A stretch of DNA of 64,000 bases from Candidatus Peregrinibacteria bacterium CG11_big_fil_rev_8_21_14_0_20_49_14 (GTDB lineage: Bacteria; Patescibacteriota; Gracilibacteria; Peribacterales; Peribacteraceae): the NCBI GenBank assembly GCA_002787035.1, contig PCVP01000028.1:1-64000 (forward strand). Direction: 5' to 3'. The notes under the pieces were generated by a model. The model was not told the DNA's origin and did not search any database. It saw nothing but the letters and a program-made list of their open reading frames with translations. The position numbers and the translations under genes are program-made. Within the stretch, counting starts at the first letter, position 1; each line of letters starts with the position of its first letter. This document shows, in pieces, positions 39,412 to 47,189 of the stretch.

Positions 39412-39488
39412 GCGGATGTAGCTCAGTTGGCTAGAGCGTCGCCTTGCCATGGCGAAGGTCGCGAGTTCGAATCTCGTCATCCGCTCCA
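39412..39488 (+). tRNA. tRNA-Gly (GCC)
   Basis: Acceptor GCGGATG pairs with CATCCGC, discriminator T, encoded CCA. Anticodon loop TTGCCAT gives GCC. T arm GCGAG-TTCGAAT-CTCGT. Confidence 0.96.
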
Positions 39489-39523
39489 AATACACCAAAT
39501 ACCCCCTTAATCCTTGAAAAGAA

Positions 39524-39598
39524 GCGGGATTAGTACAGTGGCTAGTATACAGGCTTCCCAAGCCTGAGAGGCGGGTTCGATTCCCGTATCCCGCTCCA
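39524..39598 (+). tRNA. tRNA-Gly (CCC)
   Basis: Acceptor GCGGGAT pairs with ATCCCGC, discriminator T, encoded CCA. Anticodon arm CAGGC-TTCCCAA-GCCTG gives CCC. It lies 35 nt after tRNA-Gly (GCC) and is probably co-transcribed. Confidence 0.96.
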
Positions 39599-39606
39599 CA
39601 AGAATC

Positions 39607-40311
39607 TTATACTGTTCTCGCAAGATACCGCTTTCGTTCCTCGTCGGGGAATTTCTCTATGGCATACCGAAGCATGGTGCGGGGCATCTTTTCGTACCGA
39701 GTCTGTAAAAACCTGCGGAGTGCAAAGCCATCACGCTTCCCTGCCTCGCGAAGCATCCATCCCACGGCTTTGTGCATAAGGTCATGCGAATGGGACAACA
39801 ATATATTCGCTATGCGAAACGTATCTGCCGTTTGCCCTTCTTGAATGAATGCGAATGTGGACACCATGGCCACTCGCTGCGTCCAGAGATGATTTGATCG
39901 TGCGAGAGAATCAAGGACAGAACGGTCGCCGGAAAACAGATGCGCACCCACTATCTGATACGCGGAAGAGTCCGTAAGATCCCAGTTATTCACATGCCGT
40001 AGGTGCCGCACATAGAAATCATAAATGGCTTGTCTTCCCTCTTCGTCCGCTTTACGAAAGAGAGCCACAAGCAAAATAAGGGCAAGGAAACGACACTCGT
40101 GAACGGGGTCTTTCAGCAACACTTCCACGTCTTTCATCGTGGCATTGCCATGGTGCTTGGCGACGGATCGCATGGCAGGAACAGTCACGCCGATGAATAT
40201 GTCGCCTTCTGCGTACTGCCCCTTGCCACACTTAAAAAACCGCTGAGAAAGCTGTGCCCTCTCTTTGTCCGCCAGAGCCAGAAGCTCGTTTCTGATTGCA
40301 TTGGCACTCAT
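39607..40311 (-). CDS. DNA alkylation repair protein, AlkD-like HEAT-repeat glycosylase
   Basis: The 234-residue all-helical protein has GVTVPAMRSVAKHHG near residue 45, ECRFLALILLVALFRKAD, VNNWDLTDSSAYQIVG (family motif NWDLxD with the conserved Asp) and the C-terminal PRTMLRYAIEKFPDEERKRYL. AlkD removes positively charged alkylated bases without base flipping. Start is ATG 40311; the frame also opens at TTG 40317. It faces the tRNA-Gly pair, ending 9 nt from it. Confidence 0.9.
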   Translation of the reverse strand: MSANAIRNELLALADKERAQLSQRFFKCGKGQYAEGDIFIGVTVPAMRSVAKHHGNATMKDVEVLLKDPVHECRFLALILLVALFRKADEEGRQAIYDFYVRHLRHVNNWDLTDSSAYQIVGAHLFSGDRSVLDSLARSNHLWTQRVAMVSTFAFIQEGQTADTFRIANILLSHSHDLMHKAVGWMLREAGKRDGFALRRFLQTRYEKMPRTMLRYAIEKFPDEERKRYLARTV

Positions 40312-40373
40312 ATGCAAAGTGTATCAGTCATTTGAAAAGCTGATAAACGGCGCATGTACACCATTGAAATCAC

Positions 40374-40407
40374 CAACAAAAAACACACGGTCTTTGAGGT
40401 CGTGTGT
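40374..40407 (-). terminator. Intrinsic terminator of the cold-shock gene
   Basis: On the minus strand ACACACG pairs with CGTGTGT around ACCTCAAAGAC, followed by TTTTTTGTT. It lies 20 nt after the stop codon. Confidence 0.85.
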
Positions 40408-40426
40408 CTTCTGTGATTGCAGAGAA

Positions 40427-40621
40427 TTAGACTCTGGAAACGTTTCCTGCCTTCGGACCCTTCGGACCGGAGCCAACTTCGTACTGCACCTCTTCACCCT
40501 CACGAAGAGAGTCGAAGGCCACATCTACGAGGTCTGCGGAGTGGAAGAAAAGATCATCACCACCCTCGCGGGAAATAAAACCGAAGCCATTAAGCAGCTT
40601 CTTGATAGTACCTGTATCCAT
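40427..40621 (-). CDS. Cold-shock protein (CspA family)
   Basis: The 64-residue single OB-fold protein has the RNA-binding motifs GFGFIS (RNP1) and DLFFH (RNP2), and starts [15 protein letters not shown], where Csp proteins usually read GTVKWFNxxKGFGFI. It binds single-stranded RNA as a chaperone. The upstream region 40622-40785 has no gene on this strand and may hold a leader of the long type seen in csp mRNAs. Confidence 0.95.
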
Positions 40622-40751
40622 AAAAAATAGGATAAATGAAGTAGAAATGTAATCGTAACCCTGGGAGAAGCATCTCTACCTCTTTCAAAACTAAGCTTAC
40701 AAACGAAGTATAGCCTACTTTCCCTCTTTCCCCTAGAAATATCTCCGCTAT

Positions 40752-40779
40752 TTTACAATTCTCATGCAGGTTATAGAAT
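40752..40779 (+). promoter_or_regulatory. Promoter for lipoprotein at 40786
   Basis: TTTACA (40752-40757), a 16-nt spacer and TAGAAT (40774-40779). The ATG follows the -10 box after 6 nt, so the message is probably leaderless. Confidence 0.6.
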
Positions 40780-40785
40780 GCTGCC

Positions 40786-41244
40786 ATGAGCAAATTCTAC
40801 GTGTGCATGGTGGCACTGCTGCTGGTTTCCTGCGAAAGCTCTTCGGTTCAATCCCGAGCGGATACCGAGCTTGCACAGCGCGTCACAACGCTTGAGGAGC
40901 GTGTATGGCAATTGGAAACACTGCTCTCAGGTGAGCAGGAACTTCGACACGTGGGAGATGCCGGAGTGTCGTACGAATTCATCGGGACGCTTGAGCTTCT
41001 TGCGTCTCCTCCTGCGCAAGATATCGGATACCGCTATGTCCTCCGACTCTCACAACCGGTTTCCGATCCGTTGCATGCAACGGGGAATCCCATCGTGTAC
41101 CAATTTGTCACCGTACCGACGAAGGAGTCGGACATAGACCTTGCTCCGTACGTACGAAAAAAAGTACGCATGCAAGGCACTGTGGAGTGGGGGTACGCCG
41201 AATCCAGAATTATCGCAGTCACACATGTGCAAGAAGCGCAATAA
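40786..41244 (+). CDS. Small lipoprotein with coiled-coil stalk
   Basis: The 152-residue product begins MSKFYVCMVALLLVSCESS with lipobox LVSC. A short coiled coil (ELAQRVTTLEERVWQLETLL) follows, then a beta-rich domain (YEFIGTLELLASP, YVLRLSQPVSDP, IVYQFVTVP, VRMQGTVEWG). The barrel-like pattern suggests an OB-type fold. Function unknown. Confidence 0.78.
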   Translation: MSKFYVCMVALLLVSCESSSVQSRADTELAQRVTTLEERVWQLETLLSGEQELRHVGDAGVSYEFIGTLELLASPPAQDIGYRYVLRLSQPVSDPLHATGNPIVYQFVTVPTKESDIDLAPYVRKKVRMQGTVEWGYAESRIIAVTHVQEAQ

Positions 41245-41268
41245 ACAGATGTATACGCCGCATTGTTC

Positions 41269-42897
41269 TTACGAATCTTTCCGCAACAGGAAACTGCCGA
41301 TTGCCAGCGCGTCCATTCCGCAGCAGGCGTAGGTGCGAAGCGCGTCGGTCGGGCTGCATACAAGCGGCTCACCCGCAACATTGAAACTGGTGTTCAAAAT
41401 CACTCCCCTGCCCGTAATGTCTTTGAACTCAGAGATGAGCTTGAAGTAGTGCGGATTCACTTCTTCTCGCACTCCCTGCACGCGTGCCGTTTCGTCCACA
41501 TGCACGGCAGCTCTGTAACTCTCCACTTTGTCTTTACGTGCCTGAAATGCCAGAATCATGAAAGGACTGTTGTACGGACCTTCCACGTATTCTCCGATGT
41601 CGTCGTAGTGCATGGAGGGTGCGAACGGTCGCCACATTTCTCGGTGTTTCACCTCGGCATTCACCTTGTCTTTTATGCCTTCCAATGCCGGGTCCGCCAC
41701 TATGCTTCTGCCGCCGAGTGCCCGTGGTCCCACTTCCATACGACCCTGAAACCACCCCACTACTTTTCCTTGCGACATCAGTTCTGCGGTACGACGCTCT
41801 ATATTATCGCATCGCTCGTAACCGAGCTTCGATTCCCTGAGCACCGCTTCTATTTCTTCATCTGAATACGCAGGTCCGTAGTAGGCGTGGTCAAACACGA
41901 AACTCGGACGCTTACCTGTGAGTTGCACATGCTGAAATACTGCAGCGCCCAGTGCCACACCGGCATCGGAAGATGCAGGCTGTACGAAAATGTCGTCGAC
42001 GTACTCGCTATGCAGTAACTTTCCGTTCGCAGAACAGTTCAGCGCCACACCTCCGGACATACACAAGGCTCTGCTTCCCGACTTCTCTGAAAGATACTTC
42101 GCCATCTGCAACAATGCGCGCTCCAGTGCATGCTGCACGGTGGCGGCCAGATCTTTGTATTCCTGTGTGATCTCCGCACCTTTCTCTCGCGGAGTGAGTG
42201 AAGCCAGAAACTTGTTACGCTTGGTATGGTCTATGCGCGGAACGGGGCAGTCCCAGTCTATGAAATCAAAAAGATCGGGATTTGGCGTACCGAATGCCGC
42301 AAGACCCATGGTTTTCCCTTCGTGACTGTGTGGCTGGAATCCGAGCACTTTGGTCATGCGTTCGTACAGCGCACCCCAGCTACCCGCATTGGTCACACGC
42401 TTGCAGATGTGCAAGTCTGTCCCTTCTCCCCACCCCAGCATGCCGCTTTCGCCTCCGCCTGCTCCGTCGAGAGAGATAAAGTTCGCTTTCTCAAACCCCG
42501 AGAGATACAGGGAACTTGCGACATGTGAGAGGTGATGATTGCAAAACGTCACTCGCGGATCTTGGGGTGAAAATGGAAAGAGTTCGTTCCCGCGGGAAAT
42601 CTCCGCAAGAGTGCGTCGAATTTTCCCGTACGCAAATCGCGGAGGTTGCGGCGGCCAGAGGTTCGGTAACACCACAGACCACTTGCTATCCATACCTATG
42701 GCAATGTGGTCCACCTCTTCGAGGGTTATCCCCCCTTCTTTCAGGCAGTACTCCATCGCCTTGCGAGGGAAAGAACGCGGTGCGTGCTTGGTGCGCGTAA
42801 AACGCTCTTCCTCGGCAAATGCGATAAGCTTGCCATCTACGAGGAGAGCCGCAGCCGTGTTCCAGCTGTAAGGATGTGTAAGTCCGAGTATCTTCAT
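41269..42897 (-). CDS. Carbamoyltransferase (NodU/CmcH family)
   Basis: The 542-residue enzyme has the N-terminal ASKHA-like domain: MKILGLTHPYSWNTAAALLVDG, AEEERFTRTKHAPRSFPRKA (split as AEEERFTRTKHA and PRSFP), NHHLSHVASSLYLSGF with metal-binding His, and SLDGAGGGESG. The C-terminal YrdC-like domain has VVGWFQGRMEVGPRALGGRSI and LNTSFNVAGEPLV. It transfers carbamoyl from carbamoyl phosphate to a hydroxyl of a sugar or natural product. Full length. Its target here is probably a surface glycan, but no glycan cluster adjoins it. Confidence 0.93.
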   Translation of the reverse strand: MKILGLTHPYSWNTAAALLVDGKLIAFAEEERFTRTKHAPRSFPRKAMEYCLKEGGITLEEVDHIAIGMDSKWSVVLPNLWPPQPPRFAYGKIRRTLAEISRGNELFPFSPQDPRVTFCNHHLSHVASSLYLSGFEKANFISLDGAGGGESGMLGWGEGTDLHICKRVTNAGSWGALYERMTKVLGFQPHSHEGKTMGLAAFGTPNPDLFDFIDWDCPVPRIDHTKRNKFLASLTPREKGAEITQEYKDLAATVQHALERALLQMAKYLSEKSGSRALCMSGGVALNCSANGKLLHSEYVDDIFVQPASSDAGVALGAAVFQHVQLTGKRPSFVFDHAYYGPAYSDEEIEAVLRESKLGYERCDNIERRTAELMSQGKVVGWFQGRMEVGPRALGGRSIVADPALEGIKDKVNAEVKHREMWRPFAPSMHYDDIGEYVEGPYNSPFMILAFQARKDKVESYRAAVHVDETARVQGVREEVNPHYFKLISEFKDITGRGVILNTSFNVAGEPLVCSPTDALRTYACCGMDALAIGSFLLRKDS

Positions 42898-42996
42898 ACG
42901 CGCAGCGTATATTCGCAGACAGCGTACCGAAGCACAACGAAGTTTACTGTATTCTCCGTAAAATGGTACTCCTTATGGGAGTTTATTCGAGAGTGA

Positions 42997-43308
42997 TTAG
43001 TACTCAGCAACACCATTGTCAGTTGATGCATCGGGTTCGAAGCCTGAATCATCAACTCCATCATCTACCTCATTGCTTGTTCCCATAAGAACTTCAAAGT
43101 CACTCTGCTGTAAGAACTGAATATGCCTTGAATTAAAGTCATCCCTGAGAGCTTCAAGACCCGTTCCATTAAATAACTCAAGAACTGCACCAGAAACCAT
43201 TCCTTGCTCATCAAATTCAAAGGTATCTACTAATTCTTTAAACTGCACTTTTTGGTCAAGGTCTTCTATTTGAGCAGCAAATCTTTCAAATTGAGTATTT
43301 CTAAACAT
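42997..43308 (-). CDS. Small acidic hypothetical protein (103 aa)
   Basis: The protein is acidic, with no signal or membrane helix. It begins MFRNTQFERFAAQIEDLDQK and ends in a disordered acidic tail (NEVDDGVDDSGFEPDASTD). The base composition is more AT-rich than its neighbours. No family recognised. It follows a tRNA remnant, a usual place for acquired genes. Confidence 0.6.
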   Translation of the reverse strand: MFRNTQFERFAAQIEDLDQKVQFKELVDTFEFDEQGMVSGAVLELFNGTGLEALRDDFNSRHIQFLQQSDFEVLMGTSNEVDDGVDDSGFEPDASTDNGVAEY

Positions 43309-43366
43309 GATTAGGTTGAGAAACTTGTATTAGTACTATATTAAGTATATTGATTCCTGTCAATAA

Positions 43367-43406
43367 TGGTACCCCCGACAGGTATCGAACCTGTATCTTC
43401 GGCTCC
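43367..43406 (-). pseudogene. 3' half of a broken tRNA-Arg
   Basis: Read on the minus strand it gives the 3' anticodon stem side, T arm ACAGG-TTCGATA-CCTGT, acceptor strand CGGGGGT, A and an encoded CCA. The acceptor strand pairs with the GCCCCCG of the 5' fragment at 43697-43703 (G-U at the first pair). The match ends in the anticodon loop. Confidence 0.85.
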
Positions 43407-43455
43407 CACCTTCGCATGTCACTTGTATAGCTGAACAACCATAATTTGGCATATG

Positions 43456-43535
43456 CTTTGTGTCACCCTGAGCTCGTCGAAGGGCGACACAAAGCCAAAA
43501 CGTGATGGTTCGACGAGTTCACCATGACACGTTTT
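43456..43535. repeat. Pair of REP-like hairpins in inverted orientation
   Basis: Hairpin 1 (43456-43494) has arms CTTTGTGTC and GACACAAAG; hairpin 2 (43497-43535) has arms AAAACGTG and CACGTTTT. Their loops carry GAGCTCGTCGAA and TTCGACGAGTTC, near-complements of each other, so the two units are inverted copies. A third related unit (CCTGAGCCTGTCGAAGG) lies at 44519-44535. This resembles REP/BIME elements. Confidence 0.8.
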
Positions 43536-43565
43536 GTATCGTTTTATAGTAGTGTAGCTATATAG

Positions 43566-43642
43566 TGGTGCGCCTGACAGGATTCGAACCTGTGGCCTTC
43601 AGCTCCGGAAGCTGACGCTCTATCCAGCTGAGCTACAGGCGC
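43566..43642 (-). tRNA. tRNA-Arg (CCG), intact
   Basis: Acceptor GCGCCTG (from 43642) pairs with CAGGCGC, discriminator A, encoded CCA (43566-43568). Anticodon arm TCAGC-TTCCGGA-GCTGA gives CCG. It lies inside the insertion that splits the neighbouring tRNA-Arg. Confidence 0.95.
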
Positions 43643-43666
43643 ATGATGTGCTTCGGTGGGCAAAAG

Positions 43667-43703
43667 CCGGAAGCTGACAGTCTATCCGTTAGCCTACGGG
43701 GGC
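43667..43703 (-). pseudogene. 5' half of a broken tRNA-Arg (CCG)
   Basis: Starting at 43703, the minus strand reads acceptor GCCCCCG, TA, a D arm and TCAGC-TTCCGG. There the match to a tRNA stops, in the middle of the anticodon loop. Joined to the fragment at 43367-43406 it would form a 75-nt tRNA with CCG anticodon. Confidence 0.85.
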
Positions 43704-43715
43704 ACTGCGGTAATA

Positions 43716-44480
43716 CTAAGCAGGCAACCCGAAGAATTCCACCGTGGTTCGGGTGGTAATTTCGTCCAGTTCTTGCAGAGAAACACCTTTTAAATCCGCA
43801 AGTAACTTGGCGACCTCCGCTACGTACGCAGGTTCGTTGCGTCTCCCCCTGTGCGGAACGGGGGCAAGATACGGTGCATCTGTTTCTATCATCATCTGTT
43901 CCAAGGGACACTTCTTTATGGTTCTGCGAATCTCTTCGGACTTGGTATAGGTTGCAATGCCCGTAAACGAAAGGTGGTAGCCACGTTCCACCAACGGGGC
44001 GACATCTTCCCATTTTTCAGTGCAGCAATGAATGACAACACTCGGAGGATTCACCTCCGCGATCGTTTCTCGTATATGCTCCACTGCCTCTCTGCAATGC
44101 ACCACCGCGGGGAGGTTCAGCTCTTTTGTAAGGAGCAGTTGCGCACGAAATACTTCTCGCTGCGTGCTGCGCGGCGAATTATCGTAAAAGTAATCCAAGC
44201 CTATTTCTCCCACCGCCACCACTTTCTTTGAGCTGCGAATCATATCGGTTAGGCGGCTCATGCTTTCCTTCGACCATCGGCTGCTGACATGCGGATGCAC
44301 GCCGATCGTACAAAAGACCTCGTCATACCTTGCCGATATTTCCAGGCAGCGTTCTCCTTCCTCCAAAGAATCGGCTATGGCTATACATCTGCCCACTCCC
44401 GCCTCACGAGCACGACGCAGGACTGCGGGAAGATCTTTTTCGAACTGAGTGTCGCCCAGGTGGCAATGAGAATCGATCAT
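43716..44480 (-). CDS. tatD: TatD-family DNase/metal hydrolase
   Basis: The 254-residue TIM-barrel enzyme has the metal motif MIDSHCHLGD, GEIGLDYFYDNS with the bridging Glu, PAVVHCREA, VIHCC, and METDAPYLAPVPHRG near the C-terminus. TatD proteins are Mg2+-dependent 3' exonucleases in DNA repair and turnover. The first 20 bp of the gene are repeated upstream at 44536-44556. Confidence 0.94.
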   Translation of the reverse strand: MIDSHCHLGDTQFEKDLPAVLRRAREAGVGRCIAIADSLEEGERCLEISARYDEVFCTIGVHPHVSSRWSKESMSRLTDMIRSSKKVVAVGEIGLDYFYDNSPRSTQREVFRAQLLLTKELNLPAVVHCREAVEHIRETIAEVNPPSVVIHCCTEKWEDVAPLVERGYHLSFTGIATYTKSEEIRRTIKKCPLEQMMIETDAPYLAPVPHRGRRNEPAYVAEVAKLLADLKGVSLQELDEITTRTTVEFFGLPA

Positions 44481-44510
44481 AGAACAAACAAATAAAAATG
44501 AGGGAGAGAA

Positions 44511-44556
44511 TTGTCATCCTGAGCCTGTCGAAGGATGGCAATGGGAATCGATCATA
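44511..44556. repeat. REP-like hairpin plus duplicate of the tatD 5' end
   Basis: TTGTCATCC (44511-44519) and GGATGGCAA (44533-44541) form a stem with one mismatch around TGAGCCTGTCGAA. The bases 44536-44556 repeat 44461-44481 (start of tatD) with one mismatch, 75 bp apart. The hairpin overlaps the duplicate by six bases. Confidence 0.75.
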
Positions 44557-44571
44557 CGAGCAGCATACCAC

Positions 44572-45195
44572 TCACGTTGTCTGTGTCTTCTTTCCTTCGA
44601 AGATTCCTATGAGAAAAGCGGCAGTCACAGACCCGACCAGATTCGCCACAAGATCCCATCCCGTATTGATGTATCCGCCCACATTCGTATTGGGAATGGC
44701 CAGCGTCGCCACAAACTCCACCACCTCGTTCAGCGCTCCAAGCCCCATGCCTCCGATGGCACAAAGCACAAGGATTCCCGACGTCGGATACACATTCTTC
44801 AGAGCGCAGCGCAATGCCTGCCAACACAGCCACGTGGAAATACCGAACCCATAGGCATGCACAACGTGGTCATACTTCAGGAAACCCGGAATCAACCACC
44901 AGCTGTAAAACACATGATTTACACCGTTTACGGGCCAGCTTAGCGGTACGGGTACCAACCCACCGACCATATGGAGCAGACCCCAGATACTCAGCCCCCA
45001 CACCACTCCCGAAGAAAGCTTCACACGCAGATGCACGGCAATGGCGGCGCATGCCAAAATAAGCACCACGGCGATGTAGTACACAAACTCCCAGTTGTGC
45101 AATTGCAGTGCGAAAACAGACGCAGCCAGAAGGTACGCCGCAGAGAAGAGTCCGACATTGCGAAGGGGGGCAAAACGAGAAGCATCGACAGTCAT
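44572..45195 (-). CDS. DUF2238-like membrane protein
   Basis: The 207-residue protein has about six hydrophobic segments. The conserved part reads YDHVVHAYGFG, GMGLGALNEVVEFVATL and GGYINTGWDLVANLVG, the His/Glu/Asp-containing core of DUF2238 (YjdF-like) proteins. The function of the family is not known. Start ATG 45195 is well placed, 15 nt downstream of the TfoX-like gene on the same strand. Confidence 0.8.
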   Translation of the reverse strand: MTVDASRFAPLRNVGLFSAAYLLAASVFALQLHNWEFVYYIAVVLILACAAIAVHLRVKLSSGVVWGLSIWGLLHMVGGLVPVPLSWPVNGVNHVFYSWWLIPGFLKYDHVVHAYGFGISTWLCWQALRCALKNVYPTSGILVLCAIGGMGLGALNEVVEFVATLAIPNTNVGGYINTGWDLVANLVGSVTAAFLIGIFEGKKTQTT

Positions 45196-45210
45196 GTGTC
45201 ACAGCATACC

Positions 45211-45474
45211 TCAGAGTGCGGCAAGTTGCGCCCTGAGCTTTTCTTTTATTTCATCGGGCACTTCATCAAACCGCATATCGTTCATGGCTCCGAAGAGTGC
45301 CCACAGCAGCACAATACTCGCATTGGGTTTGATTTCTTTCATCATCGCATACAGTCGTACGATGCCGATTTTTTCTATGTCCCCTTTCGTATGTATGCCG
45401 ATACGTGCAAACCACTCTTCGCATGCTCTGCCGAGATTCGGCAGATCTTTTATGGGAGTATTTGCATCCGACAT
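45211..45474 (-). CDS. TfoX C-terminal-domain protein
   Basis: The 87-residue protein begins with the TfoX C-terminal signature: IKDLPNLGRACEEWFARIGIHTKGDIEKIG, quoted as DLPNLGRACEEWFARIGIHT, followed by LLWALFGAMNDMRFDEVP. It is a helix-hairpin-helix-like fold found alone in many bacteria. A role in competence is known only for full-length TfoX, so it should not be assumed. Confidence 0.85.
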   Translation of the reverse strand: MSDANTPIKDLPNLGRACEEWFARIGIHTKGDIEKIGIVRLYAMMKEIKPNASIVLLWALFGAMNDMRFDEVPDEIKEKLRAQLAAL

Positions 45475-45481
45475 ATCTGCA

Positions 45482-45724
45482 TTATACGGAAATCAATTCT
45501 TCTTTCTGTTGCCTGCTCCATTTCTTTATTTCCGCTTCTCGTTTGCGTGCTTGCGAGAGTGTTGCAAATTCCTCATTGTAGATAATGTGTACGGGTCCTC
45601 TGCTCCGTGTGTACTTCGCCCCCGTACCGTCATTATGTTTTGCTTCACGATCTTGTATATCCATACATGTTCCCGCATACAGAGAATTGTCACTGCACCG
45701 AGCAAGGTAGAAGTAGTGGGGCAT
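45482..45724 (-). CDS. GIY-YIG nuclease-domain protein (UPF0213 type)
   Basis: The 80-residue protein starts MPHYFYLARCSDNSLYAGT, with Y-F-Y ... L-Y-A-G as the GIY-YIG variant, and continues with HNDGTGAKYTRSRGPV and SQARKREAEIKKWSR. These stand-alone domains are thought to act on DNA; no target is known. ATG 45724 gives the family start; the frame extends six codons further. Seven nt separate it from the TfoX-like gene. Confidence 0.88.
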   Translation of the reverse strand: MPHYFYLARCSDNSLYAGTCMDIQDREAKHNDGTGAKYTRSRGPVHIIYNEEFATLSQARKREAEIKKWSRQQKEELISV

Positions 45725-45832
45725 GATGTGAGTATAAACCAAACATCACTGAAAAAAGTCCACTAAAGATCGGGAGGGTACTTTTCGGGTTTGAGCTGTC
45801 CGTTGGTGAGAGCATAGCTTTCCCTCATGCGT

Positions 45833-45907
45833 TGGTGGGTCGGGTGGGATTTGAACCCACGGCCAATAGGTTAAAAGCCTACTGCTCTACCCCTGAGCTA
45901 CCGACCC
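45833..45907 (-). tRNA. tRNA-Lys (TTT)
   Basis: Acceptor GGGTCGG pairs with CCGACCC, discriminator A, encoded CCA (45833-45835). Anticodon arm GTAGG-CTTTTAA-CCTAT gives TTT. Confidence 0.96.
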
Positions 45908-45995
45908 ATAGCTTCGGCATTGTAGGGAAAGAACAAACAAGCGGAAAGAAAAAGCTGTGCTACCTTCCGTTCGTATTCTCACGAGAGAACAAAGA

Positions 45996-47189
45996 CTATT
46001 CCCGGTGCTTTTCCACCAGACTCCGTAGTGCCTTATTTTTGGATAATCGCCTTTCAACCACCCCGATATATCCTTTGGCCTGCGTGGTACCGATTCCCAT
46101 TTGTCGAGCCACATCTTTTACTTTCATCGGATCCCTTTCTCCAAACCCAGTCTTGAGAAGCCATGCCTGAATATATTTCTCCGGAATGCCGCCCATCGCG
46201 TGCAGAGCTTTGGTAAAAGCGTCGGAAATATCCTGCTGCTGCAATCGAGCATCTTCTGCAGGAGCACCGGTGTCTGCTATGAGAGAGCCTCGTGTGGTGT
46301 CTCCGCCTTCTCCGAGAATATCATCGAGGCGCTGGGGCTTCTTTCGTACCTTGCGCATCTGTTTCACTTCATCCTCGGTGAGCCCGCAAAAAGCCGCTAC
46401 CTCGGCGACACTCGGCTTATGCACCCCCTGAGTTTGCAGTTGCTGCTCTGCTTTTCGCACTTTGTACAGCATACCCACGATGTGTTCGGGAAGACGGATG
46501 TCTCTTGTGCCATCCGTGAGTGCACGTAGAATAGCTTGTCGTATCCACCATGTCGCATATGTGGAAAATTTGCATCCGCGCGTGGGGTCAAACTTCTCGA
46601 CAGCTCTTGCCAAACCCACTCCTCCTTCTTGTACAAGATCTTGGAATGAAAGCCCGAGTCCCCTGTAACGCTTGGCTATGGATACTACCAAGCGATAATT
46701 GTGATGAGAGAGCTGATCTTGCCTCTCTTTGTATGGTGCGTGAGCACCTTTCAGCACATGAAATCTCTCTTCTGCGGCACCAAGACTTTCCCCCAACAGT
46801 TCTGTATCCGCACCCTCCGGGCATTTGGTCTGCAACAATCGAACATGATCTTTGAATGTTTTATAGCACGCATACGCCACTGCGGGATCCGTATTCAAAT
46901 CCACGGGCCCTTCGGGATACCTTGCGGCAAACGGAGATTGCGCAAGCAGAGCAATAAACCTGCTGCGAGCTTCTGCAAGCGCTGCAGTAACGGTCTTTTC
47001 ATTCTCTATCGAGAGAGGTTTCGGCTTACAAAGAGTCTGAAGCATGTACTGTATATCGTCCATACGCCCTTCTTTACCGAGTCCTGTCAGTAACTGCTGC
47101 TTTTGTAATTCTCCGGTGCACACTTCATCTTCCTCGAGAGCAAGTTCATCGGGAGACGGTTCTGCCACATCTAATAGTTCTAACGCCAT
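45996..47189 (-). CDS. Sigma-70 family RNA polymerase sigma factor with divergent region 4
   Basis: A 397-residue group 1/2-like sigma factor. Region 2 is canonical: [49 protein letters not shown] (-10 recognition and melting). Region 3 follows with RDIRLPEHI and [18 protein letters not shown]. Region 4 is weak: where sigma-70 proteins usually have VTRERIRQIE, this one reads [18 protein letters not shown]. The N-terminal 130 residues are unlike region 1.1. It may be the main or an alternative sigma; the window does not decide. Confidence 0.9.

Follow-up and report, generated by a model that had tools for sequence, protein, structure and literature searches.

In the 64,000-nucleotide stretch analysed here (the window; positions 1 to 64,000 of contig PCVP01000028.1 of Candidatus Peregrinibacteria bacterium CG11_big_fil_rev_8_21_14_0_20_49_14), a tRNA-Arg(CCG) gene is cut in its anticodon loop and a second, intact tRNA-Arg(CCG) gene lies between the halves. 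We refer to the cut gene as type A, to the intact gene as type B, and to this genome as G000, a draft assembly of 46 contigs in which the window lies on contig C18. Along the minus strand, a tatD-like gene is followed by the A 5' half, CTTTT with the left arm of a palindrome, intact B, CTA, TA, a 133-bp element, TA, CAAGTGACAT, the right palindrome arm and the A 3' half (Table 1). The halves, of 37 and 38 nt, rejoin to a 75-nt tRNA-Arg(CCG) with 96% identity to the intact gene of relative G051 (3 differences), confirming a sequence-only reading of the DNA which had proposed a tRNA-Arg(CCG) cut in the anticodon loop around another one. The 3' half is located where that reading placed it (43406-43367), except that its start moves to 43404 because 43406 takes in two ambiguous G. 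ARAGORN and Rfam call the inner gene and detect no split gene.

Table 1. Features of the disrupted tRNA-Arg(CCG) locus.
Feature	Position	Strand	Basis and remarks
tatD-like open reading frame (ORF), 254 aa	43716..44480	(-)	ORF; upstream neighbour marking the tRNA-Arg(CCG) slot
5' half of type A tRNA-Arg(CCG), 37 nt, ends ...CAGCTTCCGG	43703-43667	(-)	97% over 37 nt to an intact type A gene; 28 relatives have an intact orthologue
CTTTT and palindrome left arm	43666-43643; arm GCCCACCGAAGCACATCAT 43661-43643	(-)	arm GCCCACCGAAG as in 16/74 family genomes; pairs with right arm
CATGCG 6-bp direct repeat bounding the tRNA B block	43645-43640 (first), 43418-43413 (second)	(-)	sequence reading; weak alone
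Intact type B tRNA-Arg(CCG), 77 nt with CCA	43642-43566	(-)	ARAGORN; Rfam tRNA 73.2 bits; no other intact CCG gene found in the genome
133-bp element TAGCT...AGCTA, resembling a miniature inverted-repeat transposable element (MITE)	43560-43428; TA flanks 43562-43561 and 43427-43426	(-)	matches at C28, C37, C39, C8 and C16 of G000
Palindrome right arm GCGAAGGTGGG	43415-43405	(-)	identical to arm of family copies
3' half of type A tRNA-Arg(CCG) including CCA, 38 nt, AGCCGAAG...ACCA	43404-43367	(-)	97.5% over 40 nt to an intact type A gene

The split gene is no chance match, since intact orthologues stand at the same site 3' of tatD in 28 relatives; the sequence-only reading had suggested looking for an uninterrupted copy in relatives. 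Misassembly at the repeat is also unlikely, because both pairs, the two halves of the acceptor stem and the two palindrome arms, match across it. A strict pattern for CCG tRNA-Arg, running from the D arm to the anticodon, was searched in 74 family genomes; it matched one gene in 51 genomes and two in G000 alone, with no match in the remaining 22. At every locus retrieved (52/52) an intact CCG tRNA-Arg lies downstream of tatD, mostly on the tatD strand, at times on the opposite one, and in a few cases 0.5-1.3 kb off. The nearest relatives of the tatD-like gene carry the names Peribacteria/Peregrinibacteria (Patescibacteria). Furthermore, many tatD loci have no CCG tRNA-Arg nearby, which is consistent with a dispensable gene.

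Type A (75 nt) is found at 28 of the 52 loci and type B (76-77 nt) at 24, that is, the inner gene of G000 and 23 others. The two types share the slot in G000 only, where A is split, and are never found intact together in the 52 genomes; the arrangement of A split around B is thus known from one genome. Remnant A or B halves were also sought beside the other 51 genes, where weak short matches were found at most. Mean identity is 0.87 among type A genes and 0.89 among type B genes, against 0.72 from one type to the other; on this comparison A and B are separate tRNA lineages with the same anticodon. Type A comes closest to Arg tRNAs of the CCT type (0.77). The types are mixed inside genera g1, g5, g14, g41, g45 and g49, and of the congeners of G000, G002 has A and G001 has B. 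A tatD tree with 48 rows requires 9 changes of A/B label, at least 5 of them forced by starred branches. With this number of changes, G000 appears to have preserved an intermediate stage in a repeated exchange of isoacceptors at a single slot.

In the G000 assembly 43 tRNA genes were found, and among them only B is an intact CCG gene. This upholds the earlier proposal of a different tRNA-Arg(CCG) as replacement for the split one. CGG accounts for 70 of the 844 Arg codons in 39 long ORFs of the window. A tRNA-Arg gene with anticodon TCG is present as a possible wobble partner, tRNA-Arg(UCG) being probably able to read CGG by wobble. As to the source of B, the GCG tRNA-Arg of 13 phylum genomes is one base off the G000 gene over 29 bases, the difference lying in the anticodon, so that B may possibly derive from a GCG tRNA by anticodon change. 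As a separate observation, the tRNA set of G000 includes tRNA-Ile(TAT) and tRNA-Arg(GCG), and Arg(ACG) was not found, which is unusual for bacteria; nor was tRNA-Tyr found in the 46-contig assembly.

The insert between the A halves measures 262 bp and consists of tRNA and repeats. At each outer end it carries one arm of a separate palindromic element, a feature that the sequence-only reading had missed. In 16 of the 74 family genomes this element follows the pattern GCCCACC-GAA-GC...GC-GAA-GGTGGG and forms a compact hairpin of 27-37 nt with a GAA/GAA internal loop; in the insert, both conserved arms and a pairing inner stem identify it as a member of this Peribacterial family. Removing the B block with one CATGCG copy leaves GCCCACCGAAGCACATCATGCGAAGGTGGG, a compact palindrome of 30 nt and of the same length as a congener's copy. 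The palindrome matched no Rfam family and had no exact match in viral contigs. Mobilisation by a Y1 transposase of the kind associated with repetitive extragenic palindromic (REP) sequences (RAYT, REP-associated tyrosine transposase) is unsupported, as the matches to the two fall in different genomes: G000 has one Y1 match and no match to the compact palindrome, G001 and G002 have no Y1 match and 8 matches each to the palindrome pattern. Among 353 class genomes, 11 other matched strings, inspected by eye on the strings only, held no clear tRNA half. A second case of the palindrome beside tRNA sequence was noted at L079:3408-3447, where it abuts a tRNA-Gly 5' fragment (GCGGATGTAGCTC); intact genes lie on either side, one for type A tRNA-Arg and the other for tRNA-Gly.

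These ends bear on whether the locus is the remnant of a tRNA-dependent integration, in which a phage or element with an integrase and a short core broke A, brought a compensating B and was later reduced by deletion to B and its ends. Integrases often use tRNA genes, but an integrase event is disfavoured here because the junctions have just GG in common, in place of a core direct repeat of 8-10 bp. Moreover, the arms of a dispersed palindrome form the ends of the insert, whose mere 262 bp of tRNA and repeats contain no integrase gene and leave no room for one. Among phages and plasmids the closest match to B reaches 85.7%, and a 44-base core has no exact match in viral contigs; a phage or plasmid origin of B was rejected on these grounds. 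We consider such an integration quite unlikely.

The paired REP-like hairpins described earlier next to B are present, but belong to the 133-bp repeat. This repeat has terminal inverted repeats, TA flanks and several copies, as expected of a TA-target MITE. It has matches at five other places in G000, two of them at contig ends. Most are bordered by TA wherever the adjoining sequence is readable, and the C16 copy has TG on its right.

We also considered that the A halves might still be joined, in which case A would be a working tRNA that is either split or has an intron housing the second tRNA gene. In favour of this, the halves have hardly changed, and pairing between the ends of the insert forms a stem that extends the anticodon arm. 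The strong fold (z -7.2) is no evidence for splicing because it includes the tRNA and the hairpin repeats. Against joining, no Rfam intron family matched from 40000 to 47000 at up to E = 1, and G000 has no match to the tRNA splicing endonuclease PF01974 (controls were positive in archaea only) or to the RtcB ligase PF01139; an intron was rejected on this basis. Depending on the ambiguous GG, the A 5' half ends in CC, CCG or CCGG and never in the U that a group I 5' exon requires, in agreement with the earlier exclusion of a group I intron. Joined A would carry an A-C mispair at 29-41 of the anticodon stem, where G051 and G013 have G-C, and intact B supplies the same anticodon. A literature search for a tRNA nested in an intron found no paper. 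Splicing of the halves is unlikely, and a working joined tRNA appears highly improbable; the halves are very probably not joined, in line with the earlier view that joining is the less likely case.

Taken together, the locus probably holds a displaced tRNA gene together with the gene that took its place, nested in the order A, a palindromic element of ~35 nt, tRNA B and the 133-bp TA-flanked MITE. The order of events, the loss of A function and the mode of B arrival are inferred. The ancestor would have carried type A immediately 3' of tatD, as the 28 relatives do. A ~35-nt palindromic repeat would then have entered the anticodon loop and disabled A, while tRNA-Arg(UCG) was still there and probably covered CGG by wobble. 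Type B would next have come into the inner loop of the palindrome in the same orientation, perhaps in the same transcription unit, and taken over CGG decoding, and the MITE would have inserted beside B afterwards. The A halves would thus be a recent pseudogene, the break being dated as recent by the 3/75 positions that differ from the intact orthologue. The sequence-only reading had a single insertion bring a functional replacement tRNA and then decay: displacement is largely borne out, nested insertions fit better than one, and decay is weakly indicated at 3/75 differences.

This order is the simplest, and the first two steps could be one compound event, in which a palindrome elsewhere already contained B and the whole unit, bounded by its arms, entered A in one step. 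The two arms coincide exactly with the ends of the insert, but the printed flanks of the other B genes lack palindrome arms on both sides and no second copy of the unit was found in G000; we judge it unlikely. Several points weigh against stepwise displacement itself. The same 3/75 differences are so few that decay itself does not prove loss of function. No relative examined has A interrupted by the palindrome alone. CATGCG is weak evidence for the insertion point, a shared 6-mer arising in 382 of 5000 shuffles, and inner B of G000 is nearer to GCG-type Arg tRNAs (0.84 identity) than to the other B genes of the family (0.78). A broader proposal, that a palindrome-bounded tRNA cassette is mobile, repeatedly invades the Peribacteria tRNA-Arg(CCG) slot and drives the A/B swaps of the family, seems to us improbable.

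The outcome in G000 is similar to tRNA-dependent lysogeny (Guerrero-Bustamante and Hatfull 2024, PMC10865867), but the insert lacks phage genes, an integrase and a core of 8-10 bp, its ends are a palindromic repeat, and the codon may be covered by the tRNA-Arg(UCG) of G000. Auxiliary tRNAs in bacteria, Arg included, are gained and lost via transfer and anticodon change (Wald and Margalit 2014, PMC4041420). G000 fits such turnover with the intermediate preserved; here, in contrast, a single chromosomal slot is occupied by one or the other of two lineages that share an anticodon, and in G000 the broken old gene is kept around the new one. In archaea, a tRNA locus has been disrupted and fragmented by inserted DNA, with introns and a 1.8-kb recombinase-coding element (Sugahara et al. 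2012, PMC3293823); the G000 locus is likewise disrupted, but no introns or recombinase-coding element were found in it. REP sequences, Rickettsia palindromic elements (RPE) and MITEs are small non-coding hairpin or inverted-repeat elements whose insertion can inactivate genes (reviewed in PMC10969869). The Peribacterial palindrome resembles them in its small hairpin form and differs in its internal loop and in matching no Rfam family. The locus suggests that short palindromic repeats are able to break tRNA genes. Replacement of tRNAs is usually inferred from end states; in G000 the broken gene still surrounds its successor and congeners show both end states, providing, with isoacceptor lineages that alternate at one slot across 52 genomes, a testable case of recurrent tRNA displacement.

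Two further observations concern the surroundings of the slot. In relatives, the genes for tRNA-Gly(gcc) and tRNA-Gly(ccc) often follow downstream of the tatD slot; in G000 they are 4 kb away on the opposite strand (39412-39598), a local rearrangement. Directly after the A 3' half and before a 103-aa ORF, the minus strand carries a sigma-70-like site, TTGACA-17-TATAGT (11/12; 43363-43335).
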